Shown here: positions 18,839 to 32,638 of the stretch, in pieces
Layout of the letters: every line of letters starts with the position of its first letter
Numbering within the stretch: position 1 is the first letter of the stretch
Assembly (NCBI RefSeq): GCF_014648895.1
Contig: NZ_BMRZ01000003.1
Span: 1,054,001-1,118,000 of the forward strand
DNA length: 64,000 nucleotides
Direction: 5' to 3'
From: Streptomyces tanashiensis
GTDB lineage: Bacteria > Actinomycetota > Actinomycetes > Streptomycetales > Streptomycetaceae
Notes under the pieces: model-generated
The model's database searches: none
The model's input: only the letters and a program-made list of their open reading frames with translations
What the model was told of the DNA's origin: nothing
Translations under genes and position numbers: made by a program

Positions 18839-20623
18839 CTATCCTGCCGTCTCCTCGGCGGCGAGCGCGATGGCGGTCCCCACAAGCCCGATGTGGCTGA
18901 ACGCCTGCGGGAAGTTCCCCAGCTGACGCCCCGACACCGGGTCGTACTCCTCGGCGAGGAGCCCCACGTCGTTGGTGAGCGCGACGAGCCGCTCGAAGAG
19001 CGCGCGCGCCTCCTCCGTGCGCCCGGTCAGACGCAGCGCGTCCGCCAGCCAGAACGAGCAGACCAGGAAGGTGCCCTCCTGGCCCGGCAGCCCGTCCACG
19101 GCCGTCGAGCCGGGGCTGTACCGGCGCAGGAACCCGCCGTGCATGAGCTCGTCCCGTACGGCGTCCACGGTCCCCACCACGCGGGGGTCGTCCGGCGGCA
19201 GGAAGCCGACCTGCGGGATGAGGAGGGTGGCGGCGTCCAGCTCGGGCGAGCCGTACGCCTGGGTGAAGGTGTTCCGCACGGGGTCGTACGCCCGCGCGCA
19301 CACCTGGGCGTGGATCTCGTCCCGCATCGCCCGCCACCGCGCCGCGTCCCCCGGCAGCGAGGGATCGGCCTCCAGGGTGCGGACCGCGCGGTCGGCGGCG
19401 ACCCAGGCCATCACCTTCGAGTGGGTGAAGTGGCGGCGCGGCCCGCGGACCTCCCACAGGCCCTCGTCGGGCTCCCGCCAGGTGGACTCCAGGAAGCCGA
19501 GCAGGCTCAGCTGGAGGTTCCAGGCGTGCCGCTCCGCCGGGATCCCGGCCTCGTGCGCGCGGTGGAGGGAGTCCATGACCTCGCCGTACACGTCGAGCTG
19601 GAACTGGTCCACCGCCGCGTTCCCGGTCCGTACCGGCGCCGAGCCGGCGTAGCCGCGCAGCCAGGGCAGGCTCGTCTCCGGCAGCCGGCGCTCCCCGGCC
19701 GGTCCGTACATGATCTGCAGGTCGGCGGGGTCGCCCGCGACGGAGCGCAGCAGCCAGTCGCGCCAGGCGGCCGCCTCCTCGTCGTACCCGGCGGCGAGCA
19801 GCGCGCCGAGGGTGAGGGAGGAGTCGCGCAGCCAGCAGGCCCGGTAGTCCCAGTTGCGCACGCCGCCGAGCTCCTCCGGCAGGGAGGTGGTGGGGGCGGC
19901 CATGATCCCGCCCGTGGGGGCGTACGTGAGGGCCTTGAGGGTGATCAGGGAGCGCAGCACCGCGGCCCGGTAGGGGCCCTCGTAGGTGCAGCGGGCCGAC
20001 CACTCCCGCCAGTCCGCGAGGCACTGCTCCAGGGCGTCGAAGGGGTCGACGAGCTCCGGGCGCGGCTCGTGCGAGGGGTGCCAGGTCAGGACGAAGGCCA
20101 CCTTCTCGCCGGCGGCGACGGTGAAGGCGGACTGGGTGGAGAACTGCTGGCCCCAGGTCTTCACGTGCGGCTCGCTGCGCAGCCAGACCGAGTCCGGCCC
20201 GGCGATCGCGACCCGGTGGCCGTCGGCCCGGCGCACCCAGGGCACGATCGAGCCGTAGTCGAAGCGGAGCCGCAGCACGGAGGTCATCTCGACACTGCCG
20301 CTGATCCCCTCCACGATCCGCATCAGGTCCGGGGACCTGTCCCGCTGCGGCATGAAGTCGACGACCTTGACCGTGCCCGTACGGGTCTCCCAGGAGGTCT
20401 CCAGGACGAGGGAGTCCTCGGCGTAGCGGCGGCTGGTGCAGCTGGTGGCGCCCTTGGGCGCGATCGTCCAGTGGCCGTTGTTCTCGTCGCCGAGGATGGC
20501 GGCGAAGCAGGCGGCGGAATCGAAGCGGGGCAGACACAGCCAGTCGACCGACCCGTCGCGGCCGATGAGCGCGGCGGTCTGGAGATCGCCGATGAGGGCG
20601 TAGTCGTCGATACGTTGCGTCAC
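18839..20623 (-). CDS. Glycoside hydrolase family 15 protein (glucoamylase/trehalase type)
   Basis: A 594-residue cytoplasmic protein with the GH15 plan. The N-terminal beta domain begins IDDYALIGDLQTAALIGRDG and DWLCLPRFDS, followed by an (alpha/alpha)6 barrel containing NWDYRACWLRDSSLTLGALL, the general-acid region EGLWEVRGPRRHFTHSKVMAW, and the general-base region AEEYDPVSGRQLGNFPQAFSH. Actinobacterial members of this form include trehalases as well as alpha-glucan hydrolases; sequence alone does not decide. It starts with GTG 34 bases after the SURF1 gene and is followed by the SDR gene. Confidence 0.92.
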   Translation of the reverse strand: MTQRIDDYALIGDLQTAALIGRDGSVDWLCLPRFDSAACFAAILGDENNGHWTIAPKGATSCTSRRYAEDSLVLETSWETRTGTVKVVDFMPQRDRSPDLMRIVEGISGSVEMTSVLRLRFDYGSIVPWVRRADGHRVAIAGPDSVWLRSEPHVKTWGQQFSTQSAFTVAAGEKVAFVLTWHPSHEPRPELVDPFDALEQCLADWREWSARCTYEGPYRAAVLRSLITLKALTYAPTGGIMAAPTTSLPEELGGVRNWDYRACWLRDSSLTLGALLAAGYDEEAAAWRDWLLRSVAGDPADLQIMYGPAGERRLPETSLPWLRGYAGSAPVRTGNAAVDQFQLDVYGEVMDSLHRAHEAGIPAERHAWNLQLSLLGFLESTWREPDEGLWEVRGPRRHFTHSKVMAWVAADRAVRTLEADPSLPGDAARWRAMRDEIHAQVCARAYDPVRNTFTQAYGSPELDAATLLIPQVGFLPPDDPRVVGTVDAVRDELMHGGFLRRYSPGSTAVDGLPGQEGTFLVCSFWLADALRLTGRTEEARALFERLVALTNDVGLLAEEYDPVSGRQLGNFPQAFSHIGLVGTAIALAAEETAG

Positions 20624-20657
20624 GCTTTGGGCTGTTCCCGGAAGCGACGACGGTCAA

Positions 20658-21473
20658 TCAGCGGGACGGGGTGGCCTGGGCCTCGGCCGTGTCGCTCTCC
20701 GGGGATGCGGGGACGTCGGAGGCGGTCCCGGCCTCCCGGTCGTGCTTCTCCCGGCGCACCAGGATCACCCAGCCGACGGGTACCCCGGCGGCGAAGAGCC
20801 ACCACTGCACCGCGTACGCCATATGGGCGCCGATCGAGTCGTGGTCCGGCTCGGGGATCATCTCGGGGGTGCCGCCGGCCGCTTCGGGCGCGGTCTGCTC
20901 CAGGTAGCCGCCGAGCACCTCGCGGCCGATGAGCTCGGCCTGCTGCCGGCTGCTGATGAGCATGACCTGGCGGTCCGGCAGGCCCTTCAGGTCCTTGATG
21001 CCGCTGGCGCCCGTCGTCTCGTCCGCCTTGAGCCGGCCGGTGACGGTCACCTCGCCCTTGGGGGCCGGAGGCACCGGCGGGTAGGAGTGCTGGTCGGCGG
21101 CGGCCGGGATCCAGCCGCGGTTGACCAGGACCACCCGCCCGTCGCGCAGCACCAGCGGCGTCAGGACGTGCATGCCGACCCGGTCGTCGGAGGAGGTGCG
21201 GCGGCGGACGACCACCTCGTGGGCGGTGTCGAAGGTGCCGGTGGCGGTGACCGGGCGCCAGTAGTCGGCGCGCGGGACGGTGTGGCCGGGGGAGGTGAGT
21301 TCCTCGACCGGGAGCGGCTTCGCCCCGAGGTTGTCCGCGATCAGGGCGTTCTGGGCGACCCGGCGTTCGTGCCGGTGGAACTGCCAGAAGCCCAGCTCGA
21401 TCATCGTCGGGACGAGGACGAGGGCGATGAGGGTGAGGATCACCCACTGCCGGGACAACAGGAAGCGGTACAC
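20658..21473 (-). CDS. SURF1 family cytochrome oxidase assembly protein
   Basis: A 271-residue protein with one helix near each end (about residues 8-28 and 212-232). The family signature parts are GFWQFHRHERR, RTSSDDRVGMHVLTPLVLRDGRVVLVNRGWIP and a C-terminal HMAYAVQWWLFA. SURF1 helps heme insertion or maturation of the aa3-type oxidase in the membrane. A charged tail of about 35 residues follows. The GTG at 21473 begins right at the N-terminal helix; its ribosome binding site is weak, and the frame is open upstream, so the start carries some doubt. Confidence 0.9.
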   Translation of the reverse strand: MYRFLLSRQWVILTLIALVLVPTMIELGFWQFHRHERRVAQNALIADNLGAKPLPVEELTSPGHTVPRADYWRPVTATGTFDTAHEVVVRRRTSSDDRVGMHVLTPLVLRDGRVVLVNRGWIPAAADQHSYPPVPPAPKGEVTVTGRLKADETTGASGIKDLKGLPDRQVMLISSRQQAELIGREVLGGYLEQTAPEAAGGTPEMIPEPDHDSIGAHMAYAVQWWLFAAGVPVGWVILVRREKHDREAGTASDVPASPESDTAEAQATPSR

Positions 21474-21546
21474 GCCGTCGACGGTACATTGCGGCGAAAG
21501 GCCCCCTTGCGGCGGGTGCCGCAGGGGGGCCTGGAGCGGTTCGGGG

Positions 21547-21780
21547 TCACACCCTGTCGACGATGCCCACCTTTCCCTCCGCGCGGGCGCAGTGGCCGCC
21601 GCAGTACCAGCTGCCCTCGACCTCGACGCCCTGTCCGATGATCTGGACCCGGCAGTGCTCGCAGATGGGCGCCATGCGGTGGATGGCGCAGGCGAAGCAG
21701 TCGAAGACGTGCACCGCGCCCTGCGCGTGCACCTCGAAGGACATGCCGTAATCGTTTCCGCAGACCTCACAACGTGCCAT
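21547..21780 (-). CDS. Small cysteine-rich zinc-binding protein
   Basis: A 77-residue protein with a zinc-ribbon or metallothionein-like spacing of ligands: CEVCGND near the start, FDCFACAIH, ICEHC and WYCGGHC. Eight cysteines and several histidines suggest two metal sites. Such proteins are common in Streptomyces without a known role. It lies between the exonuclease and SURF1 genes on the same strand. Cytoplasmic; no signal peptide. Confidence 0.85.
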   Translation of the reverse strand: MARCEVCGNDYGMSFEVHAQGAVHVFDCFACAIHRMAPICEHCRVQIIGQGVEVEGSWYCGGHCARAEGKVGIVDRV

Positions 21781-21843
21781 GCGCCACAGGGTGGAGCGCC
21801 CGGCGGGCGCGCGCAGCTCGGCACGCCCGCAGGGCCGGGGGCG

Positions 21844-22818
21844 TCACCCGTCTGCCGGGGTCACGTCCCGCAGCAGCTGGGTGTAGGCGGCCTCGTCGAC
21901 GACCGGGGTGCCGAAGGATCTGGCCTTGAGGGTCTTGGAGGTGGCGGAGTCCGGGTCGTTGGTGACGAGGAGGCTCGTCAGCCGGGAGACGCTGCCGGCG
22001 ACGTGGAGACCGGCCTCGACGGTGCGGTCCTCCAGGAGCTCGCGATCGACGGAGGTGTCGCCGGAGAAGGCCACCCGCATGCCCTGCTTGAGTGGTTTGT
22101 CCGACTCGTAGCGCCCGGGGTTGGGGTACGGGCACGGCGGGCGCTTCCGCGAGGGGCGCCAGCTGCCCGCCCGGTAGGAGGACTGCCGGCCGATCGTCGG
22201 CTGCGTGGGCGCCGAGGCCCACTCGGTCAGCGGCCGGCACTCCAGGAGCGGCAGCCGTACGTTCCGCTCGGCCGCCGCGTGCAGGCTCGGCCGGAACGCC
22301 TCGGCGAGCACCCGCGCGTCGTCGAGCGCGTTGTGCGCGCGCTGCTGCACGACACCGAAGTGCGCGGCGAGCGACTCCAGCTTGTGGTTGGGCAGCGGCA
22401 GCGACAGCTCCTTGGCGAGCGCGATCGTGCAGAGCCGCTGGCGCACGGGCGCGGCGGACTCCGCGCGCGCGTACTCCCGGGCGATCATCTGCCAGTCGAA
22501 CATCGCGTTGTGCGCGACGAGCACCCGGCCGTCGAGCCGCGCCGCGAACTCCGCCGCGATCTCCGGGAAGAGCGGCGCGCCCTCCAGGACGTCGCTGGTC
22601 AGCCCGTGGATCCAGACCGGACCCGGGTCCCGCTCGGGGTTGACGAGCGTGTACCAGTGGTCCTCGACGTTCCCCTGGGCGTCCAGCCGGTAGACGGCAG
22701 CCGACACTATCCGGTCGTCCCGTGCGAGTCCGGTGGTCTCCACGTCGACGACCGCGTACCCCTGCGGGTAGGCGGCCGGCCACATCGCTGCTGTCGTACG
22801 GTCGTCAAGCACGGTCAC
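21844..22818 (-). CDS. DEDDh 3'-5' exonuclease with C-terminal BRCT domain
   Basis: A 324-residue protein. The exonuclease domain (about 20-180) has D25-x-E27 in VVDVETTGL, Asp108 in VAHNAMFDWQM, and His162/Asp167 in RAHNALDDARV, the four acidic ligands plus the DEDDh histidine. A Pro-rich linker leads to a BRCT domain (about 245-320) with VAFSGDTSVDRELLEDRTVEAG. This resembles DnaQ-like proteins outside the main replicase, probably acting in repair. The GTG start overlaps the TetR gene stop (GTGA at 22815-22818), so the two are translationally coupled. Confidence 0.9.
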   Translation of the reverse strand: MTVLDDRTTAAMWPAAYPQGYAVVDVETTGLARDDRIVSAAVYRLDAQGNVEDHWYTLVNPERDPGPVWIHGLTSDVLEGAPLFPEIAAEFAARLDGRVLVAHNAMFDWQMIAREYARAESAAPVRQRLCTIALAKELSLPLPNHKLESLAAHFGVVQQRAHNALDDARVLAEAFRPSLHAAAERNVRLPLLECRPLTEWASAPTQPTIGRQSSYRAGSWRPSRKRPPCPYPNPGRYESDKPLKQGMRVAFSGDTSVDRELLEDRTVEAGLHVAGSVSRLTSLLVTNDPDSATSKTLKARSFGTPVVDEAAYTQLLRDVTPADG

Positions 22819-23483
22819 TGAGAATACGGCCCGCGACCGACACTCCCGTCCCCGGTGCCCCCGGAGGCGTCGGCGAGCAGGCCGTCCACCAGGGCCCGTA
22901 CGGAGTCGGCGAAGAGCCGCTCGGTGTCGATCGGCGCGGACAGGGCCCGCGCGAGGGGCCCGTCGGCCTCGGCGTCCTCCCCGCGCCACAGCTCCTCCTC
23001 GGCGGGGGACTGGGCGGGGGCCCGCTCGCGGTTGCGCTCCACCAGGACGTAGCCGACGACCTGGAACTGCACGGCCCGGACGGCCCGGGCCGCGCGCGCC
23101 CCGCGGAGCCCCGCCGCGTGCGCCTCGTGGACCAGGGCGCGCTGGGCCGGCAGGAACATGCGCTCCGTCAGCCCCCGTTCGTGGACCATCGCCACCAGGT
23201 GCGGGCGCTCGCGCAGCGCGTGGCGCAGCGCGCGGGCCACCGAGACGATCCGCTCGGCCGGGGTCGCGCCCCGGGGGCGGATCGTGCCGAGGTCGGCGAC
23301 CGTGCGGGCGACGAGGGCGTCGAGGAGCGACTCGCGGTTGCCGACGTGCCAGTAGATCGAGGTGACCGCGGTCCCCAGCTCGGCGGCGAGCCGGCGCATC
23401 GTGAGCGCGTCCGGGCCGTGCTCCCTCACCAGGGCGGCCGCGGTGTCCAGGACCTCGTCGCGGGTCAGCGCGGAGCGTGCCAT
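22815..23483 (-). CDS. TetR family transcriptional regulator
   Basis: A 222-residue TetR-family repressor. The N-terminal helix-turn-helix is clear: ALTRDEVLDTAAALVREHG, ALTMRRLAAELG and AVTSIYWHVGNRESLLDAL. The C-terminal ligand domain is Ala/Arg-rich, with VQFQVVGYVLVERNRE, and resembles the TetR_C group of tetracycline-repressor-like proteins. It is divergent from the decarboxylase-like operon, with a perfect palindrome between them, so it probably controls that operon and itself. The ATG at 23483 has GGGGGAA upstream. It also leads the minus-strand run through the exonuclease gene. Confidence 0.92.
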   Translation of the reverse strand: MARSALTRDEVLDTAAALVREHGPDALTMRRLAAELGTAVTSIYWHVGNRESLLDALVARTVADLGTIRPRGATPAERIVSVARALRHALRERPHLVAMVHERGLTERMFLPAQRALVHEAHAAGLRGARAARAVRAVQFQVVGYVLVERNRERAPAQSPAEEELWRGEDAEADGPLARALSAPIDTERLFADSVRALVDGLLADASGGTGDGSVGRGPYSQ

Positions 23484-23536
23484 CGGTTCCCCCAACTCCT
23501 CTGCGTGCACACCTCTTTACCCTTCGGCGGCCGCGG

Positions 23537-23551
23537 TGTAACTGTGTTACA
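23537..23551. promoter_or_regulatory. Palindromic operator between tetR and the decarboxylase-like operon
   Basis: TGTAAC (23537-23542), TGT, GTTACA (23546-23551) form a perfect inverted repeat with a three-base centre. It lies in the 96-base divergent intergenic region, 28 bases before the ATG at 23580 and 53 bases before the tetR start. Size and place fit a TetR-type operator. Confidence 0.75.
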
Positions 23552-23579
23552 GGCCGACGATCCCGAAGGGTGGTACGTC

Positions 23580-24377
23580 ATGGCACGAGTACGGTACGGG
23601 GCGCGCAGCGACGCGGAGGCGGCGGCGGCCCGCGAGCGGTCCGCCAAGCTCCCCGACATCTGGTCCACCGGTGTGGTCGCCGTCTGGGAGACCGACCCGG
23701 ACGTCGTGGCGGCGGTCCTGCCGCCCCCGCTGAAACCCACCGCGCGCCCCCTCGTGCGCGCCAACATCAGCAAGGTCGACCTGCCCGGCTATCCGCTCGG
23801 CGCCGGCTCGGTGGCGGTGGCCGCCGCCCACGGCGACCGGGAGGGCTGGTACCCGCTGGTCATGCCGATGACCCACGAGCGGGCCCTGATCGGCGGGCGC
23901 GAGGTCTTCGGCGAGCCGAAGAAGCTGGGCGAGGTCACGGTCGAGCGCGAGGGGCTCGTCGTGCGCGCCGCCCTCGCCCGGCACGGCATCGCCTTCGTGG
24001 AGGTGCGCGGCGCGGTCTCCGGACCGCTGCCGCTGCCGGAGCCCGTCGAGAAGACCGACTTCTACTTCAAGTTCCTCCCCGGCGTCGAGGGCACCGGCTT
24101 CGACGCCGACCCCGTCCTGGTCCACTGCGTCCGCAACGAGAAGGTGCGGAGGCTGGAGCGGATCACCGGCGACGTCGTCCTGCGCGAGTCCATGTACGAC
24201 CCGGTCGCCGACCTCCCCGTGCGCCGCCTCGTCGAGATCACGATCGGCGAGAAGACCACCGACCAGAAGGGCACCGTCGCCGAACGCGTCTCCGCCCGGG
24301 ACCTGCTGCCCTTCGTCCACCAGCGGTACGACGACCCGCTCCAGATCCTCGACGGACCCCCGGAAGGAAGTGCCTGA
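23580..24377 (+). CDS. Acetoacetate decarboxylase family protein
   Basis: A 265-residue protein of the ADC superfamily. The Lys-Lys segment that in clostridial acetoacetate decarboxylase carries the Schiff-base lysine is visible in GREVFGEPKKLGEV (about residues 105-118). VLPPPLKPTARPLVRANI and the Phe/Tyr-rich FYFKFLPGVEG are also typical. Family members decarboxylate beta-keto acids or act as aldolase-dehydratases through a lysine imine. It is the first gene of a four-gene operon, and its TGA overlaps the ATG of the SDR gene. GAAGGGTGG precedes the ATG. Confidence 0.88.
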   Translation: MARVRYGARSDAEAAAARERSAKLPDIWSTGVVAVWETDPDVVAAVLPPPLKPTARPLVRANISKVDLPGYPLGAGSVAVAAAHGDREGWYPLVMPMTHERALIGGREVFGEPKKLGEVTVEREGLVVRAALARHGIAFVEVRGAVSGPLPLPEPVEKTDFYFKFLPGVEGTGFDADPVLVHCVRNEKVRRLERITGDVVLRESMYDPVADLPVRRLVEITIGEKTTDQKGTVAERVSARDLLPFVHQRYDDPLQILDGPPEGSA

Positions 24378-25261
24378 TGGAGCTGCGTGAGGGGCAGGTC
24401 GCCGTCGTCACGGGCGCGGCGAGCGGCATCGGGCTCGCGATGGCCCGCCGCTTCGCCGCCGAGGGGCTCGCCGTCGTCCTCGGGGACGTCGAGCGGGCCG
24501 CGCTGGAGGAGGCCGCCGACGAGCTGACGGCGAGCGGGGCGCGGGTCCTCGCCCGGACGGTCGACGTCTCCGACCCCGACGACGTGCGGGCCTTCGCGGA
24601 GGCCGCGTACGACGCCTTCGGCGCCGTCCACGTCCTCTGCAACAACGCGGGCGTCGGCTCCGGCGCCGAGGGCCGCATGTGGGAGCACGAGCCGAACGAC
24701 TGGAAGTGGGCCTTCTCCGTCAACGTCTGGGGTGTCTTCCACGGCATCCAGGCCTTCGTCCCGCGCATGCTCGCGGGCGGCGAACCCGGCCACGTCGTGA
24801 ACACCTCCTCCGGCGACGGCGGCATCGCCCCGCTGCCCACCGCCTCCGTGTACGCGGTCACCAAGGCGGCCGTCGTCACCATGACCGAGTCCCTGTACGC
24901 GCACCTGAGGGCGGAGCACGCGCGCGTGGGCGCCTCCGTCCTCTTCCCGGGCCCCCACATGCTCCGCACCGGTCTGTGGGAGTCGCACCGCAACCGCCCC
25001 GAGCGTTACGCCAAGCAGAAGCCGCGCAGGACCCCGTACCGCAGCCTCGACCAGTGGGAGTCGGCGATGAAGGAGGCCGGGCACGAGGTCGCCTTCACAC
25101 CGGTCGAGGACGTCGCCGAGCACGTCGTCGAGGGCATCCGCGCCGACCGTTTCTGGATGCTGCCGGAGAGCGAGCACAGCGACCGCCAGATCAGGGCGCG
25201 CTCGCGGTCCATGCTCGACCGCGCCAACCCGTCGTACCTGGAGAGCTTCATCCTCGACTGA
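24377..25261 (+). CDS. Short-chain dehydrogenase/reductase
   Basis: A 294-residue classical SDR with TGAASGIG (about 14-21), NNAG in LCNNAGVGSGAEG, the catalytic Ser in NTSSGDGG and Tyr-x-x-x-Lys in SVYAVTKAA. It has a longer C-terminal substrate loop than FabG-type enzymes (LWESHRNRPERYAKQKPRRTPYRSL split across residues 205-235) and a tail containing RARSRSMLDR. The long loop suggests a bulky substrate. It is coupled to the ADC-family gene by TGATG and followed 21 bases later by the first amidohydrolase. Confidence 0.9.
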   Translation: MELREGQVAVVTGAASGIGLAMARRFAAEGLAVVLGDVERAALEEAADELTASGARVLARTVDVSDPDDVRAFAEAAYDAFGAVHVLCNNAGVGSGAEGRMWEHEPNDWKWAFSVNVWGVFHGIQAFVPRMLAGGEPGHVVNTSSGDGGIAPLPTASVYAVTKAAVVTMTESLYAHLRAEHARVGASVLFPGPHMLRTGLWESHRNRPERYAKQKPRRTPYRSLDQWESAMKEAGHEVAFTPVEDVAEHVVEGIRADRFWMLPESEHSDRQIRARSRSMLDRANPSYLESFILD

Positions 25262-25282
25262 CCCGCCTGAGGGGGCTGCACG

Positions 25283-26563
25283 ATGAGCTACGAGGACCCG
25301 TATCTGATCATCTCGTCCGACTGCCACGCCGGGCTTCCCACCGAGGAGTACCGGCCCTATCTCGACCCCCGCTTCCACCGGGACTTCGACGACTTCCTGG
25401 CGGGGCGCGAGGCCCGCCGGGAGGCCATGACCCGGCTCGGGGTGCGCAACGAGGCCTTCGCGAACAAGTGGTTCAGCGACAACGAGGAAGGTCTGCGCGG
25501 CGGCTGGGACGCCGCCCGGCGCATCAAGGAGCTCGACGGCGACGGGGTGGCCGCCGAGGTCGTCTTCCCCGACGCGGACGCCGTCGACAGCCAGACCGCC
25601 GCGCCCTTCGGTGTCGGCCTCGGACTCTCCGGCGACCAGGACCCGGAGCTCGGCATGGCGGGCGCGAAGGCGCACAACCGCTGGCTCGCCGAGTTCGTCT
25701 CCGCGAACCCCGCACGGCACTGCGGGGTCGCCCTCCTCCCCGTCACCGCGGACGTCCGCGAGGTCGTCGCCGAGATCCACCGGGCCAAGGAGTCCGGGCT
25801 CGGCGCGCTCATGATCCCCTCCATGTGGGTGGACAAGGCCCCGTACCACGACCGGCGCTACGACCCGGTGTGGGCGGCGGCGGCCGAGACCGGCATGCCG
25901 GTCGTCACCCACTCCGGGGCGGCGCCGCGCGAGGAGTACGGCGACCACCTCGGCATCTACGTCTCCGAGGTCACCTGGTGGCCGGCCAGGCCGCTGTGGT
26001 TCCTGCTCTGGTCGGGCGTCTTCGAGCGCCACCCCAGCCTCCGGTTCGGGGTCGCCGAGTCCGGCTGCTGGTGGCTGCCGAACCTGCTCTGGTTCATGGA
26101 CCGGCTCTACCTGGGCGCGCACGGCGGCAAGAAGCTGTCCCCGTTCGCGGAGCTGAAGCGGCCGCCGAGCGAGTACCTGGACCGGCAGGTCTTCGTGTGC
26201 GCCACCAACACCAAGCGGCGCGAGCTCGCCCAGCGGTACGAGATCGGCGTCGACAACATCCTGTGGGGCTCGGACTTCCCGCACCCTGAGGGCACCTGGC
26301 CCGACACGCGCGCGTGGCTGCGGAAGACCTTCCACGACATTCCGGTCGAGGAGACCCGGCGGATGCTGGGCCTCGCCGCCGCCGAGGTCTTCGGATTCGA
26401 CGTCCCCACACTGGATCCGATCGCCCGCCGGATCGGCCCCACCCCCGCCGACCTCGGCCAGCCCGCCGACCAGACCGCCGTCGAAGCCTCCTGGGCCCGC
26501 TCGCGCGAGGTCGGCCGGCACTGGCTCACCGACCACGAGTTCCCGGTCATCGGAGCGAACTGA
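25283..26563 (+). CDS. Amidohydrolase-related TIM-barrel metal hydrolase (copy 1)
   Basis: A 426-residue Amidohydro_2-type protein. Metal-ligand segments are SSDCHAG near residue 11 (Asp-Cys-His in place of the usual His-x-His), a central His in VVTHSGAAP, and the C-terminal WGSDFPHPEG with the conserved Asp. Relatives include ACMSD-like decarboxylases and C-C hydrolases. It shares its layout with the next gene, and the two look like tandem paralogues. The stop overlaps the following ATG (TGATG). Its substrate is unknown, but co-expression with an ADC-family protein and an SDR points to a short catabolic route. Confidence 0.88.
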   Translation: MSYEDPYLIISSDCHAGLPTEEYRPYLDPRFHRDFDDFLAGREARREAMTRLGVRNEAFANKWFSDNEEGLRGGWDAARRIKELDGDGVAAEVVFPDADAVDSQTAAPFGVGLGLSGDQDPELGMAGAKAHNRWLAEFVSANPARHCGVALLPVTADVREVVAEIHRAKESGLGALMIPSMWVDKAPYHDRRYDPVWAAAAETGMPVVTHSGAAPREEYGDHLGIYVSEVTWWPARPLWFLLWSGVFERHPSLRFGVAESGCWWLPNLLWFMDRLYLGAHGGKKLSPFAELKRPPSEYLDRQVFVCATNTKRRELAQRYEIGVDNILWGSDFPHPEGTWPDTRAWLRKTFHDIPVEETRRMLGLAAAEVFGFDVPTLDPIARRIGPTPADLGQPADQTAVEASWARSREVGRHWLTDHEFPVIGAN

Positions 26564-27798
26564 TGGACAGGCCGATGGACAGATACACCGTCATCTCCGC
26601 CGACTGCCACGCGGGCGCCGACCTCCTCGACTACAGGCCGTACCTGGAGAAGAAGCACCACGACGACTTCGACGCCTGGGCCGCGACCTACGTCAACCCG
26701 TACGAGGACCTGCTCGCCGACACCGCCGACCGCAACTGGAACTCGCGGCGCCGGCTGCGCGAGCTGGAGGCGGACGGCATCGTCGCCGAGGTCGTCTTCC
26801 CCAACACCATCCCGCCGTTCTTCCCCAAGGCCTCCCTGATGGCCCAGCCGCCCACCCGCGCCGAGTACGAGCAGCGCTGGGCCGGGCTCCAGGCGCACAA
26901 CCGCTGGCTGGCCGACTTCTGCGCGGACGCCCCGGGACGCAGGGCCGGAGTGGCGCAGATCCTCCTCAACGACGTGGACGCGGCGGTCGCGGAGATCCGC
27001 CGCGCCCGCGAGGCCGGACTCACCGGGGGCATCCTGCTGCCCGGAGTCCCGCCGGGCTCGCCCGTCCCCGAGCTGTACTCCGAGGCGTACGACCCGATCT
27101 GGGCCGTCTGCGCCGAGCTCGACGTCCCGGTCAACCACCACGGCGGCTCCGCGTCACCGCCGCTCGGGGACGAACCGGCCGCCCGGGCGGTGTTCATGGT
27201 GGAGACCACCTGGTTCTCCCACCGGGCCCTGTGGCACCTGATCTTCGGCGGCGCCTTCCGGCGCCACCCGGGGCTCAAGCTGGTCCTGACCGAGCAGGGC
27301 TCGGGCTGGATCCCGGGCGTGCTCGACATGCTGGACTACTACCACCGGCGCCTGGTGTCGGCCGCGACGCGGGCCGCCACCGCCGAGTCCAAGTTCGGCG
27401 CCGGGCTCGCGGAGTCCATGGGCAAGGGCCCCGGCGAGGTCTGGCGGGACAACTGCTTCGTCGGCGCGAGCTTCATGCGCCCCCACGAGGTGCCGCTGCG
27501 CGACCGGATCGGCCTCGACAAGATCATGTGGGGCAGCGACTACCCGCACGACGAGGGCACCACCCCGTACTCCCGCGAAGGCCTCCGCATCGCCTACGCG
27601 GGACTGCCCCGGGAGGAGGTCGCGGCCATGGTCGGCGGGAACGCCGCCCGGGTCTACGGCTTCGACCTCGCCCTCCTCGACCGCCTCGCCGCCGTCCACG
27701 GACCGGCCGTCGAGGAGATCGCCCAGCCCCTGAAGGAGGTCCCCGAGGGCGCCACCAGCCCGGCCTTCGCCCCGGGCGGGTCGGTCCGCGTCTGGTGA
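26563..27798 (+). CDS. Amidohydrolase-related TIM-barrel metal hydrolase (copy 2)
   Basis: A 411-residue paralogue of the preceding protein: SADCHAG near the start, LEADGIVAEVVFPN, VNHHGGSASPP in the middle and MWGSDYPHDEGTTPYSREG at the C-terminal metal site. The first 30 residues and the last motif match copy 1 closely, whereas the middle differs, so the pair may form a heteromer or act in successive steps. The ATG at 26563 overlaps the upstream stop. A second Met four codons later could also serve. It is the last gene of the operon; a VIT gene follows after 24 bases. Confidence 0.88.
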   Translation: MDRPMDRYTVISADCHAGADLLDYRPYLEKKHHDDFDAWAATYVNPYEDLLADTADRNWNSRRRLRELEADGIVAEVVFPNTIPPFFPKASLMAQPPTRAEYEQRWAGLQAHNRWLADFCADAPGRRAGVAQILLNDVDAAVAEIRRAREAGLTGGILLPGVPPGSPVPELYSEAYDPIWAVCAELDVPVNHHGGSASPPLGDEPAARAVFMVETTWFSHRALWHLIFGGAFRRHPGLKLVLTEQGSGWIPGVLDMLDYYHRRLVSAATRAATAESKFGAGLAESMGKGPGEVWRDNCFVGASFMRPHEVPLRDRIGLDKIMWGSDYPHDEGTTPYSREGLRIAYAGLPREEVAAMVGGNAARVYGFDLALLDRLAAVHGPAVEEIAQPLKEVPEGATSPAFAPGGSVRVW

Positions 27799-27822
27799 GC
27801 CGCCGGGTGCGACCCTCCTGAC

Positions 27823-28548
27823 GTGACGTCACCCCCCGCGCCCGACCCGGCCCACGACGAGGCCCACGGCGGCGGCCTCGGCGCCCGTCTCAACTGGCTC
27901 CGGGCCGCCGTGCTCGGAGCCAACGACGGCGTCGTCTCCACCGCCGGCCTCGTCGTCGGCGTCGCCGGCGCCACCGAGTCCCGGGCCGCCCTGCTCACCG
28001 CCGGCCTCTCGGGGCTGCTCGCCGGCTCGATGTCGATGGCGGCGGGGGAGTACGTCTCGGTCTCCAGCCAGCGCGACTCCGAGAAGGCCGCGCTCGCCCA
28101 GGAGAAGCGCGAGCTGCGCGAGCGGCCGGAGGCCGAGCTCGACGAACTCACCGGCCTGCTCGCCGCCCGAGGCCTCTCCCCGGACGTGGCCCGCGAGGCC
28201 GCCGAACAGCTCACCGCCCGCGACGCGCTGCGCGCCCACGCGCGCGTGGAGCTCGGCATCGACCCCGACGCCCTCACCAACCCCTGGCACGCGGCCGGCG
28301 CCAGCTTCCTCGCCTTCACCGTCGGCGCCCTGCTCCCGCTCCTCGCGATCGTCCTCCCGCCGGCCTCCGCACGCCTCTGGGTCACGGTCCTGTCCGTGCT
28401 CGCGGCCCTCACCTTCACCGGCTGGTGGAGCGCCCGCCTCGGCAGCGCCCCCACGGGCCCCGCGATCCTCCGCAACGCGGCGGGCGGAGCCCTCGCCATG
28501 GCGGTCACCTACGGCGCGGGGTCCCTCCTGGGAGCGGCGGGGGTGTAG
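27823..28548 (+). CDS. VIT1/CCC1 family metal (iron/manganese) transporter
   Basis: A 241-residue membrane protein. The first helix carries LRAAVLGANDGVVSTAGLVVGVAGA, the VIT signature; the second carries GLLAGSMSMAAGEYVSVSSQRDSE. A cytoplasmic helical Glu-rich region (about 88-145) with ARVELGID is the metal-binding domain, followed by three more helices. Family members export Fe2+ or Mn2+ from the cytoplasm. It starts with GTG 24 bases after the amidohydrolase gene. Whether it belongs to that operon is unclear. Confidence 0.9.
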   Translation: MTSPPAPDPAHDEAHGGGLGARLNWLRAAVLGANDGVVSTAGLVVGVAGATESRAALLTAGLSGLLAGSMSMAAGEYVSVSSQRDSEKAALAQEKRELRERPEAELDELTGLLAARGLSPDVAREAAEQLTARDALRAHARVELGIDPDALTNPWHAAGASFLAFTVGALLPLLAIVLPPASARLWVTVLSVLAALTFTGWWSARLGSAPTGPAILRNAAGGALAMAVTYGAGSLLGAAGV

Positions 28549-28570
28549 GGCCTGTCTTTCGGATCAGGCC
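28549..28570 (+). terminator. Hairpin after the VIT gene
   Basis: GGCCTG (28549-28554) and CAGGCC (28565-28570) pair around a ten-base loop containing TCTTTCGGAT, directly after the VIT stop codon. A short GGATCAGG direct repeat follows. The stem is only six pairs, so this is a tentative terminator. Confidence 0.45.
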
Positions 28571-28679
28571 GGATCAGGGGGCTTGTCGGAAGGTGCCAAA
28601 GCTTGCTGACAAGTCGTCTCGCATACTTGTTGGTAACCACGTCTATCCGTGCCCGGCCCGCGCCTCTACCGTCGACGGC

Positions 28680-29570
28680 ATGCCGAACCTGCCCGATGTC
28701 GTGCTCTGGTCCATACCGGCGTTCGTCCTGCTCACCGTCGTGGAGATGGTCAGCCACCGGATCCACCCCGACGAGGACGCCGCCGGGTACGAGGCCAAGG
28801 ACGCCGCCACCAGCATCGGCATGGGCCTGGGAAGCCTCTTCTTCGACGCGCTGTGGAAGATCCCCGTGGTCGCGATCTACACCGCCGTCTACGAGCTGAC
28901 CCCGCTCCGCGTCCCCGTCCTCTGGTGGACGATCCCGCTCATGCTGCTCGCGCAGGACTTCTTCTACTACTGGCAGCACCGCGGACACCACGTCATCCGC
29001 ATCCTCTGGGCCTGCCACGTCGTCCACCACAGCAGCCGGAAGTACAACCTCAGCACCGCCCTGCGGCAGCCGTGGACCGGCGTCACGGGCTGGCCCTTCT
29101 ACCTGCCGGTGATCGCCCTCGGCGTCCACCCCGCGGCCCTGGCCTTCTGCTACTCGGTCAACCTCGTCTACCAGTTCTGGATCCACACCGAGCGCATCGG
29201 CAAGCTGCCCCGCCCCTTCGAGTACGTCCTCAACACCCCCTCGCACCACCGGGTCCACCACGCCTCCCAGGGCGGCTACCTGGACCGGAACTTCGGCGGC
29301 ATCCTCATCGTCTGGGACCGGGTGTTCGGCTCCTGGGTCGGCGAGACCGAGCGGCCCGTCTACGGGCTCACCAAGAACATCGAGACCTACAACCCGCTGC
29401 GCGTCGCCACCCACGAGTACGCCGCCATCGCCCGCGACCTGCGCGCCGCGCACGACTGGCGCGAACGGGCCGGACGGCTCTTCCGCGGCCCCGGCTGGCA
29501 GCCCGCGCCCGCCGGCGGCGGGACCCCCGACGCCGGCACCGGACCCGCCGCCCCCGAGGCCGCCGCGTGA
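28680..29570 (+). CDS. Sterol desaturase / fatty acid hydroxylase family membrane protein
   Basis: A 296-residue di-iron membrane oxygenase. The eight-histidine pattern is present: FYYWQHRGHH (HxxxHH type), VVHHSS with a preceding His, and the late cluster TPSHHRVHHASQGG. At least four hydrophobic segments surround them. The superfamily includes sterol C4/C5 oxidases, fatty-acid hydroxylases and alkylglycerol monooxygenase. A disordered Pro/Gly/Ala tail ends the protein. It overlaps the lysoplasmalogenase-like gene by four bases (GTGA), which points to lipid, perhaps ether-lipid, chemistry. ATG 28680 was chosen at the first hydrophobic helix. Confidence 0.9.
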   Translation: MPNLPDVVLWSIPAFVLLTVVEMVSHRIHPDEDAAGYEAKDAATSIGMGLGSLFFDALWKIPVVAIYTAVYELTPLRVPVLWWTIPLMLLAQDFFYYWQHRGHHVIRILWACHVVHHSSRKYNLSTALRQPWTGVTGWPFYLPVIALGVHPAALAFCYSVNLVYQFWIHTERIGKLPRPFEYVLNTPSHHRVHHASQGGYLDRNFGGILIVWDRVFGSWVGETERPVYGLTKNIETYNPLRVATHEYAAIARDLRAAHDWRERAGRLFRGPGWQPAPAGGGTPDAGTGPAAPEAAA

Positions 29571-30199
29571 AGACGTCCTCCCGCGCGCTGCTCGCCGCCT
29601 TCGCGCTCGCGGCCGCCGTCGACCTGGTCTCCCTGCTCGCCGGCGCCGAGCTCGGCCACCAGATCGCCAAACCGCTCCTGATGCCCCTGCTCGCCGCGTA
29701 CGCCGTCACCCTCGGCGCCCCGCGGCTGCTGACCGCCGCGCTCCTCCTCGGCTGGGGCGGTGACGTCCTCCTGCTCTCCGACGCCGACTGGGCCTTCCTC
29801 GTCGGCATGGGCTCCTTCGCCGCCGGACACGTCTGCTACCTCGTCCTCTTCGGCCGGAGGCGTACGTCCCCGGCGCTCGGCGCCCTCTACACGGCCGCGC
29901 TCGTGGGCACCGTCGCGCTCCTCTGGCCCGACCTCCCCGCCGAGCTGCGGATCCCCGTCGCCGGGTACTCCCTGCTGCTCACCGCGATGGCCTACCGCTC
30001 CAGCGCCCTCGGGCTCCTGGCCGGCCTCGGCGGCGCGCTGTTCCTGCTGTCCGACACCCTGATCGCCACCGGCGTCGCCGAGTGGCCCCAGCTGCCCGCG
30101 CCCGACTTCTGGGTCATGCTGACCTACATCGCGGCGCAGTACCTGCTGACGGCGGGAGCGCTCCGCGCGATGTACGGTGAACGTCGTACAACCGTCTGA
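29567..30199 (+). CDS. YhhN/TMEM86 family (lysoplasmalogenase-like) membrane protein
   Basis: A 210-residue protein with about eight short hydrophobic helices. Family markers are the early KPLLMPLLAAY, then LLGWGGDVLLL (conserved Asp), FLVGMGSFAAGHVCYLVLF, LLLTAMAYRSS and the second Asp in LFLLSDTLIA. The characterised mammalian member TMEM86B hydrolyses the vinyl-ether bond of lysoplasmalogen. The GTG start lies inside the upstream stop (GTGA), so both proteins should be made together. The activity in bacteria is inferred by family. Confidence 0.88.
   Translation: MKTSSRALLAAFALAAAVDLVSLLAGAELGHQIAKPLLMPLLAAYAVTLGAPRLLTAALLLGWGGDVLLLSDADWAFLVGMGSFAAGHVCYLVLFGRRRTSPALGALYTAALVGTVALLWPDLPAELRIPVAGYSLLLTAMAYRSSALGLLAGLGGALFLLSDTLIATGVAEWPQLPAPDFWVMLTYIAAQYLLTAGALRAMYGERRTTV
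30171..30190. promoter_or_regulatory. Inverted repeat upstream of the alcohol dehydrogenase gene
   Basis: TGTACG (30171-30176) and CGTACA (30185-30190) flank eight bases. The repeat ends 27 bases before the alcohol dehydrogenase ATG and overlaps the last codons of the YhhN gene. This is a candidate operator for the dehydrogenase promoter. Confidence 0.4.
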
Positions 30200-31339: not shown

Positions 31340-32638
31340 TCAGGCCCCGGCCCACTCCGGCGCGTCCGCCCCCGCGACGCCCGGCGGCCGGGACCAGGCC
31401 GTCGGTCCGCCCTCGTACGAGACCGGCGACAGCGCGTGCCGCAGGTGGCCCAGCGGCCCGTCCGACTCCGTGACGTACCGCTCCGGCTCGTACCGCGGCA
31501 GCGCGTGCGTCAGCCAGTGGCCCGTCTGCGCGAGGGCCAGGCGGACGAGCCGGCCACCGCCCTCCGTGCGCTGCTCCGTCAGCGACCGCAGCACCGCCGC
31601 CGCGAGCAGATACCCCGTGCCGTGGTCCAGCGCCTGCGCCGGCAGCGCGCCCGGCTCCGCGACCGAGCCCTCCGTCGCCGCGATGCCCGTCGCCACCTGC
31701 ACCAGGGAGTCGAAGCCCCGCCGTCCGCCCCACGGCCCGTAGTCGCCCCAGGCGGAGAGCCGGGCCGTCACCAGACCCGGCCGCTCCAGGTCGAAGCGGT
31801 CGAGGGCGCCCGGCCGGTAGCCGGTGACCAGCACATCGGCGGAGTCGAGGAGTTCCTCGAAGGCGCGCCGGTCCGAGGGCCGGTCCAGATCGAGCGCGGA
31901 CGTCCGCTTGCCGACGTTCGTGTCCGCGTGCTGGTCCGGCAGTTCGGGGTTGCCCGGCGGGTCGATCCGCAGCACGTCCGCGCCGAGCAGCGCCAGCGTG
32001 CGGGTCGCGATCGGCCCCGCGATCACCCGGGTCAGGTCCAGGACGCGCAGCGGACCCGTATGCCGCCGGGGCGCGGCCTCGTCCAGCCGCTCCCGGGTCA
32101 GCAGCGGGCGCGCCGCCACCTCCCGGCCCTGCTCGCCCGCGGCCCACTCCTCGGGCGTGCGCAGGGCGACGGCCAGGCCCCCGGCCGCGTACACGGCCGT
32201 CTCGACCTCGACGGCCTTCCGCTCGCCGATCGCCGCCGCGACGGCCTCGACGGAGTCGGAGGCGTCCAGGGCGGCGAGCAACGCCGCCTTGTGATGGGGG
32301 TAGTTGGCGTGCGTACGGACCCAGCCGTCGGCGGCCCGCCAGAACCGGGAGAGGGGCGCGAAGCTCACCGGCGCCCGCCCGTCGACCCGAAGGTGGCGCT
32401 CGCTCACGAAGGCGGTGGCGACGGCCCCGTCGTCGACCCGTACCGGCCCGGGCAGCCCCGCGTGCTCCGCCGCGGCCAGCGAGCAGGCCGCGACCGCGCC
32501 GCGCGCCAGGTCCATCACCGGGAGCCGCGCGGGCAGCAGCCCGGAGACCCCGCCGTACTCCACGCGGTCGACGAGGGCGGGATCGCCGCCCAGGGCCGAC
32601 CACAGCAACTCCGTTGCGGTACGCACTGTGTTGTCCAT
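31340..32638 (-). CDS. Family III (CaiB/BaiF) CoA-transferase
   Basis: A 432-residue protein of the formyl-CoA transferase family, which moves CoA between organic acids through an aspartyl-CoA intermediate. The core is visible in VLDLTRVIAGPIATRTLALLGADVLRIDPPG. The catalytic Asp region is less clear than in Frc, with GYLLAAAVLRSLTEQR in the second half. A 190-residue N-terminal part precedes the core, an arrangement seen in fused or two-lobed members. The ATG at 32638 lacks a strong ribosome binding site and lies ten bases after a perfect palindrome. Substrate unknown. Confidence 0.88.
   Translation of the reverse strand: MDNTVRTATELLWSALGGDPALVDRVEYGGVSGLLPARLPVMDLARGAVAACSLAAAEHAGLPGPVRVDDGAVATAFVSERHLRVDGRAPVSFAPLSRFWRAADGWVRTHANYPHHKAALLAALDASDSVEAVAAAIGERKAVEVETAVYAAGGLAVALRTPEEWAAGEQGREVAARPLLTRERLDEAAPRRHTGPLRVLDLTRVIAGPIATRTLALLGADVLRIDPPGNPELPDQHADTNVGKRTSALDLDRPSDRRAFEELLDSADVLVTGYRPGALDRFDLERPGLVTARLSAWGDYGPWGGRRGFDSLVQVATGIAATEGSVAEPGALPAQALDHGTGYLLAAAVLRSLTEQRTEGGGRLVRLALAQTGHWLTHALPRYEPERYVTESDGPLGHLRHALSPVSYEGGPTAWSRPPGVAGADAPEWAGA

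Follow-up and report, generated by a model that had tools for sequence, protein, structure and literature searches.

A probable TetR-gated Streptomyces operon with two putative amidohydrolase-fold dinuclear oxygenases, a dehydrogenase and a decarboxylase-like protein

What would an operon do that joins a decarboxylase-like protein and a dehydrogenase to two paralogous members of an amidohydrolase family, and what switches it on? The question is raised by a locus in a 64,000-nucleotide stretch of Streptomyces tanashiensis DNA (contig NZ_BMRZ01000003.1, forward strand, positions 1,054,001 to 1,118,000; hereafter the window, with coordinates counted from its first base), carried by a 9.0-Mb genome. 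The locus encodes a protein of the acetoacetate decarboxylase (ADC) superfamily, a short-chain dehydrogenase/reductase (SDR) and two PF04909 (Amidohydro_2) proteins, here called AH1 and AH2, next to a divergent gene for a TetR-family repressor. The cluster is common to many soil actinobacteria, and it probably breaks down a natural compound once the repressor leaves a single DNA site. More specifically, we put at roughly 60% the probability of a TetR-gated operon in which two dinuclear oxygenases, the SDR and a Schiff-base-forming ADC-like protein bring about C-C cleavage of a bulky terpenoid- or steroid-like compound. The observed basis of this mechanism consists of the gene set, its co-conservation, the pairing of operator and TetR gene, the metal-ligand residues and the fold ranking.

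In all 80 Streptomyces loci examined, tblastn with the five proteins placed the ADC, SDR, AH1 and AH2 genes together; 74 of the loci have a TetR relative. As these loci were the best 80 of 283, selected by ADC similarity, they do not constitute a random sample. Damage or misassembly affects two of them: the TetR, AH1 and AH2 matches of L009 fall into several pieces, likely through a frameshift or an assembly error, and L028 has a partial SDR match. In a set of 197 genomes from the host's order, AH1 and the ADC protein are found in the identical 64 genomes and no genome has only one of them (threshold 1e-60 for both, the best AH1 matches lying at 1e-214 or lower), with the proviso that shared ancestry inflates any probability attached to this co-occurrence. 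These results bear out the co-conservation of the five genes, which the earlier note on this DNA, made from the sequence alone, had put forward as a check. The overlap is looser in a phylum sample of 296 genomes, where AH1 has a match in 13 (threshold 1e-40; some of these are AH2-like), the ADC protein in 7 (1e-20) and both in 6; in genomes G451 and G482, weaker ADC relatives below this threshold lie beside AH1.

The four enzyme genes lie on the + strand, divergent from the TetR gene (22815-23483, - strand; 222 aa, Pfam TetR_N and TetR_C_1 above cut-off). Start and stop codons overlap as TGATG between the ADC and SDR genes (24375-24379) and between AH1 and AH2 (26561-26565). The layout of four coupled genes divergent from TetR, as previously described, therefore stands with both overlaps, except that the SDR and AH1 genes are separated by a 21-base gap. 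The perfect palindrome noticed earlier in the 96-base gap between the TetR and ADC genes (23484-23579) was retrieved at 23537-23551 (strandless; TGTAACTGTGTTACA) and represents a putative operator. An exact TGTAACN3GTTACA is present in 74 of the 80 loci, precisely those with a TetR relative, which is divergent; in the six others the best match has 5 or 6 mismatches. Gene and palindrome are thus either both present or both absent in all 80 loci, in line with the TetR control that the note had postulated and that is predicted here. Across loci the palindrome begins 38 to 89 bases upstream of the ADC start and is 99% identical to that of the window, versus 65% and 36% for the flanking 15-mers. 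Allowing up to one mismatch, it occurs only once in the 9.0-Mb genome.

The strongest evidence that the palindrome belongs to TetR comes from other groups. It is exact in the TetR-ADC gap of L144, from another family of the same order, and differs at one base in L145, from another genus of the host's family. In three loci of family f83 (L152, L153 and L154), TetR is the last gene of the order AH2-ADC-SDR-AH1-TetR and an exact palindrome is located immediately before the called start of AH2; TetR is also terminal in L138 and L139, where a palindrome with two mismatches lies upstream of AH2. No palindrome within two mismatches was found in seven further loci, six of which have an IclR gene instead while the seventh, L143, has a divergent TetR gene. 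Because the palindrome travels with TetR in other groups, even where TetR stands at the operon end, a conserved repressor-operator pair is a well-supported prediction. In addition, six Streptomyces loci (L028, L030, L033, L039, L045 and L081) have kept the enzyme genes while both TetR and palindrome are missing, and offer a natural test of replacement control.

AH1 (25283-26563, + strand) and AH2 (26563-27798, + strand) are 35% identical over 413 aligned columns and both contain the motifs DCHAG and WGSD[FY]PHxEG, confirming the earlier description of two paralogues with shared DCHAG and WGSD-PH-EG motifs. The accompanying label of hydrolases, on the other hand, is probably wrong, as the ligand set, the profile ranking and the fold ranking favour dinuclear oxygenases. 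Both proteins match PF04909 (81 bits for AH1 and 145.5 bits for AH2; cut-off 26.4), and no NCBIfam model matched either of them at 1e-3. Each has a predicted dinuclear site, composed of D13, H15, H210, E259, D331, H334 and E336 in AH1 and of D14, H16, H193, E244, D326, H329 and E331 in AH2. In alignments that admitted distant proteins at 40% identity or more, these seven residues (D-x-H, H, E, D-x-x-H and an extra acid) do not vary among 108 AH1 and 104 AH2 proteins, except in L009, whose row is gapped at the first two ligand positions; the acid of the second metal is found without exception (E336 in 108/108, E331 in 104/104). The six dinuclear ligands described for AibH2 and LynB7 (PMC7782822, PMC10127204) align with D-x-H, H, E and D-x-x-H of AH1 and AH2, and an acid two residues past the last His is described as conserved only in binuclear members (PMC7782822).

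PtmU3 ranked first and DitZ second for both AH1 and AH2, in phmmer searches with the single proteins as well as with profiles built from 11 AH1 and 10 AH2 relatives and run against PDB sequences (profile E-values for AH1 and AH2, respectively: 4.5e-41 and 8.4e-44 for PtmU3, 7.9e-30 and 2e-39 for DitZ). The same two proteins hold the first two ranks when AlphaFold2 models of AH1 and AH2 (mean pLDDT 80.2 and 86.8) are compared with the 1000 PDB chains ranked highest by Foldseek. The AH1 model aligns with PtmU3 (PDB 6omp) at Z 32.0 (rmsd 3.2, 326 aligned), and the AH2 model with DitZ (PDB 8uyr) at Z 33.8 (rmsd 3.2, 351 aligned) and with PtmU3 at Z 33.4 (rmsd 3.1, 332 aligned). In the AH2 ranking, ACMSD (Z 30.3) comes only after ten further rows, which hold other dinuclear oxygenases, AibH1H2 entries and the uncharacterised 4dzi. 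For AH1, ACMSD already appears at rank 8 (Z 28.7), about one unit from ranks 3 to 7. The top row lies 3.5 Z units above ACMSD for AH2 and 3.3 for AH1.

PtmU3 is a nonheme diiron monooxygenase acting on a diterpenoid-CoA in platensimycin and platencin biosynthesis (PMC10127204). It shares with AH1 and AH2 the PHxEGT stretch with the acid two residues past the His, but is only 28-29% identical to them in the fold alignments. It is moreover described as needing no auxiliary paralogue (PMC10401708), whereas the Streptomyces operon has two paralogues together with an SDR and an ADC-like protein. DitZ, from Rhodococcus rhodochrous and Mn-substituted in 8uyr, differs from AH1 and AH2 at the acid two residues past the His, which is Asp (DYPHSD) and not Glu. 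A search of the open-licence literature gave no paper on DitZ, and it is counted here as a dinuclear oxygenase by similarity. AH1 and AH2 look like new subfamilies of the recently defined class of amidohydrolase-related dinuclear oxygenases (AROs; PMC10811679). In a tree of 38 rows, in which PDB sequences are partial and deep forks open, they form sister clades (98/99) of their own (100/99 for AH1 and 97/96 for AH2).

Two other PF04909 genes of the host genome, L004 (C1:1074139-1075029) and L005 (C20:88974-89897), encode D-x-H and ETDYPH[VS]D and group near DitZ in the tree, at an open fork. They probably represent further dinuclear oxygenases and, because of their ARO-like ends, AH1 and AH2 are not the sole oxygenase-like proteins of the genome. 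Both were missed by a motif search for PF04909 paralogues of the host, which caught only some of these.

The ADC-superfamily protein (23580-24377, + strand; 265 aa, Pfam PF06314, 160 bits) and the SDR (24377-25261, + strand; 294 aa, Pfam adh_short and related SDR models) keep the Schiff-base lysine and the classical SDR residues, respectively, in agreement with their initial reading as a lysine-type ADC-family protein and an SDR. K114 is present in 104/104 and K115 in 102/104 aligned proteins, a lysine pair that is shared, like the Pfam family, with acetoacetate decarboxylase and MppR. The catalytic residues of acetoacetate decarboxylase are named E61 and E76. In profile alignments with PDB sequences, however, N62 and G76 occupy the places of the two glutamates conserved in the three closest solved ADCs. 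Glu is absent from both positions in all 104 proteins, which have N, T, Q, R, G, S or A at position 62 and G, A or a gap at position 76. As both canonical glutamates are replaced, the protein was not filed as an acetoacetate decarboxylase. Since MppR, a member of the same superfamily, acts as an aldolase (PMC7820114), a retro-aldol C-C cleavage is as likely as a decarboxylation. In the SDR, S145, Y159 and K163 are conserved in 100/101 aligned proteins; the damaged L028 is the one that deviates. Among the best 25 NCBIfam models listed, only NF004843 (PRK06194), which has no stated function, passes its own cut-off (382.9 bits; cut-off 308).

In the proposed mechanism, an inducer ligand would release TetR from the palindrome and thereby turn on the operon. 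AH1 and AH2 would be O2-dependent dinuclear (Fe/Fe or Mn/Fe) monooxygenases on an amidohydrolase barrel, similar to PtmU3, and would add hydroxyl groups to a bulky substrate, either at two positions or in two steps. A resulting alcohol would be oxidised by the SDR to a ketone lying beta to the scissile bond, and the ADC-like protein would form a Schiff base through K114, leading to cleavage or decarboxylation of the product. Overall, a terpenoid- or steroid-like compound, possibly in the form of a CoA thioester, would undergo oxidative C-C cleavage. In this scheme, we infer the O2 chemistry, the order of the steps, the substrate and the electron source. The substrate may be a bulky keto compound, with which the KshA-type oxygenases beside AH1 relatives (see below) fit loosely. 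KshA has a steroid role. This link, together with the CoA-linked diterpenoid used by PtmU3, hints by analogy at a polycyclic terpenoid-like substrate.

The distant relatives comprise 29 loci from 26 genomes, some on short stretches; of 23 non-Streptomyces AH1 places located in one search, 19 were retrieved. Gene calls relied on a home-made codon model, and labels beyond the Pfam-scanned ones rest on BLAST. AH1 and AH2 occur in one cluster without a KshA-type gene in 18 of the 29. Gene orders include SDR-ADC-AH2-AH1 and AH1-AH2-ADC, both beside IclR, AH2-ADC-SDR-AH1-TetR, the window's own order, and AH2-AH1-TetR with acyl-CoA dehydrogenases and CoA ligases. Seven loci combine an AH1 relative and an SDR with a KshA-type Rieske oxygenase and have no AH2; five of them have the ADC gene too. 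KshA_C scored 86-100 bits in the five KshA-type loci tested, the other two being assigned by BLAST. The remaining four loci fit neither pattern. AH2 was not found together with a KshA-type Rieske gene in any of the 29; L150 holds a different, VanA-like Rieske gene. The simplest reading would be that a Rieske enzyme takes over, in one version, the oxygenation for which the other uses AH2. Relatives of CoA-transferase, enoyl-CoA hydratase, CoA ligase or acyl-CoA dehydrogenase genes are near 12 of the 29 loci (17 are without) and genes for branched-chain-type ABC transporters near 7. This points to acyl-CoA chemistry and substrate uptake in the loci bearing them. As a tentative extension that we would back somewhat short of even odds, the cluster could represent a widespread actinobacterial route, in which two separate dinuclear oxygenases work in series with house-keeping electron donors, a KshA-type enzyme can take the place of the second, and the final cleavage of a terpenoid- or steroid-like substrate falls to an ADC-fold lyase.

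Other explanations were weighed. AH1 and AH2 might be mononuclear-metal hydrolases or decarboxylases of the ACMSD, LigW or gamma-resorcylate decarboxylase type, so that the operon would hydrolyse and decarboxylate an oxidised intermediate. These enzymes share the family PF04909, the profile searches also list 5-carboxyvanillate decarboxylase and ACMSD, and the fold scores lie within a few Z units. Yet AH1 and AH2 have D-x-H where four paralogues of the same genome have H-x-H, and Glu and D-x-x-H-x-E where the decarboxylase LigW has His in place of the Glu ligand and DYPYQP; moreover, PtmU3 reaches 144/153 profile bits (AH1/AH2) versus 64/75 for the best decarboxylase. We therefore regard this explanation as unlikely. 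About equally improbable is a single heteromeric oxygenase with one catalytic and one structural subunit, as in the 2-aminoisobutyrate monooxygenase AibH1H2. AH1 and AH2 are indeed adjoining, translationally coupled paralogues, and AibH1H2 is a heterotetramer of two neighbouring PF04909 paralogues with 28% identity, of which AibH2 has the same six ligands (PMC7782822). However, AibH1 is described as a mononuclear subunit without the second-metal acid, which both AH1 and AH2 keep, and AibH1H2 comes with a dedicated ferredoxin (AibG) and reductase (AibF; PMC7782822), none of which was recognised in the Streptomyces operon. The idea, which the earlier note had raised as a possible heteromer, is further weakened by distant clusters with AH1 but no AH2, or AH2 but no AH1, and by the position of the ADC and SDR genes between AH2 and AH1 in family f83.

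Even less probable, in our estimate, is a role in the biosynthesis of a specialised metabolite rather than in catabolism. PtmU3 is a tailoring enzyme of platensimycin and platencin biosynthesis (PMC10127204), and a small TetR-gated operon would suit a tailoring cassette too. On the other side, Pfam recognised no polyketide, peptide or terpene synthase among the six window neighbours (the survey being confined to these neighbours), and the acyl-CoA metabolism and ABC transporter genes near distant loci speak for breakdown.

TetR-gated oxidative C-C cleavage by two dinuclear oxygenases remains the preferred reading, although several observations count against it. Decarboxylase fold scores are close and, for AH1, mixed with those of oxygenases from rank 8 on. 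The known AROs do not form one clade in the 38-row tree, where LigW groups with SfbO at 94/92; the ARO assignment consequently rests on ligands and ranking and not on the tree. The six Streptomyces loci without TetR retain the enzymes, so TetR is not essential to the enzyme set. KshA-type loci carry distinct AH1 branches, most of their AH1s forming a branch of their own, and an AH2-like protein is encoded elsewhere in six of the seven KshA-type genomes (G687 has none beyond its own AH1); the apparent replacement of AH2 may for these reasons compare different pathways. There is no CoA gene in the Streptomyces operon itself. As to electron supply, a motif scan of 81 stretches recognised no Rieske ferredoxin beside the Streptomyces operon, and Pfam found no electron-transfer protein among the operon genes or the six window neighbours. 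The matches listed in the motif scan were a small conserved CxxC/CEHC zinc-ribbon-like gene (21547-21843, - strand; 78 of the 81 stretches) and two others.

Downstream of AH2, at a distance of 24 nt, lies a VIT1-family gene (27823-28548, + strand; PF01988, 230 bits), which lies on the same strand no more than 150 nt from AH2 in 48 of the 80 loci and is possibly the last gene of the operon transcript. The VIT1 family is involved in Fe/Mn transport, and the protein may serve the two metal enzymes if it handles these metals. A VIT1 gene is present anywhere in the genome in 59 of 64 operon genomes versus 61 of 133 without the operon; it is thus enriched with the operon, but the 61 operon-free genomes do not support obligate membership, and as the genomes are related the enrichment is not a clean test. 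An FA_hydroxylase-family (sterol desaturase-like) gene (28680-29570, + strand), two genes downstream of AH2, is present in 73 of the 80 loci, which may reflect either a link to the operon or mere synteny. A CoA-transferase gene (31343-32638, - strand) was considered because CaiB genes adjoin some distant copies, and was rejected as a member of the system (41/64 genomes with the operon versus 81/133 without). Neither an Rfam scan (20000-30000) nor a search for promoter and terminator consensus sequences (23400-23700 and 27700-28700) gave a match.

The literature searched contained no account of these genes as a set, in keeping with the earlier remark that no known pathway has this exact set; as the search covered open-licence papers only, this is no proof that the set is unpublished. 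A piperine pathway of a soil actinomycete that includes an amidohydrolase-superfamily hydrolase (PMC12753220) was set aside as a different system, its text containing none of the terms 'acetoacetate decarboxylase', 'short-chain dehydrogenase' and 'PF04909'. The literature covered describes only a few characterised amidohydrolase-fold dinuclear oxygenases (PtmU3, AibH2, SfbO and LynB7), and AibH1H2 was the only cooperating PF04909 pair met. With two ARO-like proteins, a clean regulator, a compact gene set and orthologues in numerous named Streptomyces strains, the operon makes substrate and cofactor directly testable. The pairing of TetR with its operator suggests a usable sensor for the operon's inducer and, if the proposed mechanism is true, the label 'amidohydrolase' would be corrected in many genomes.

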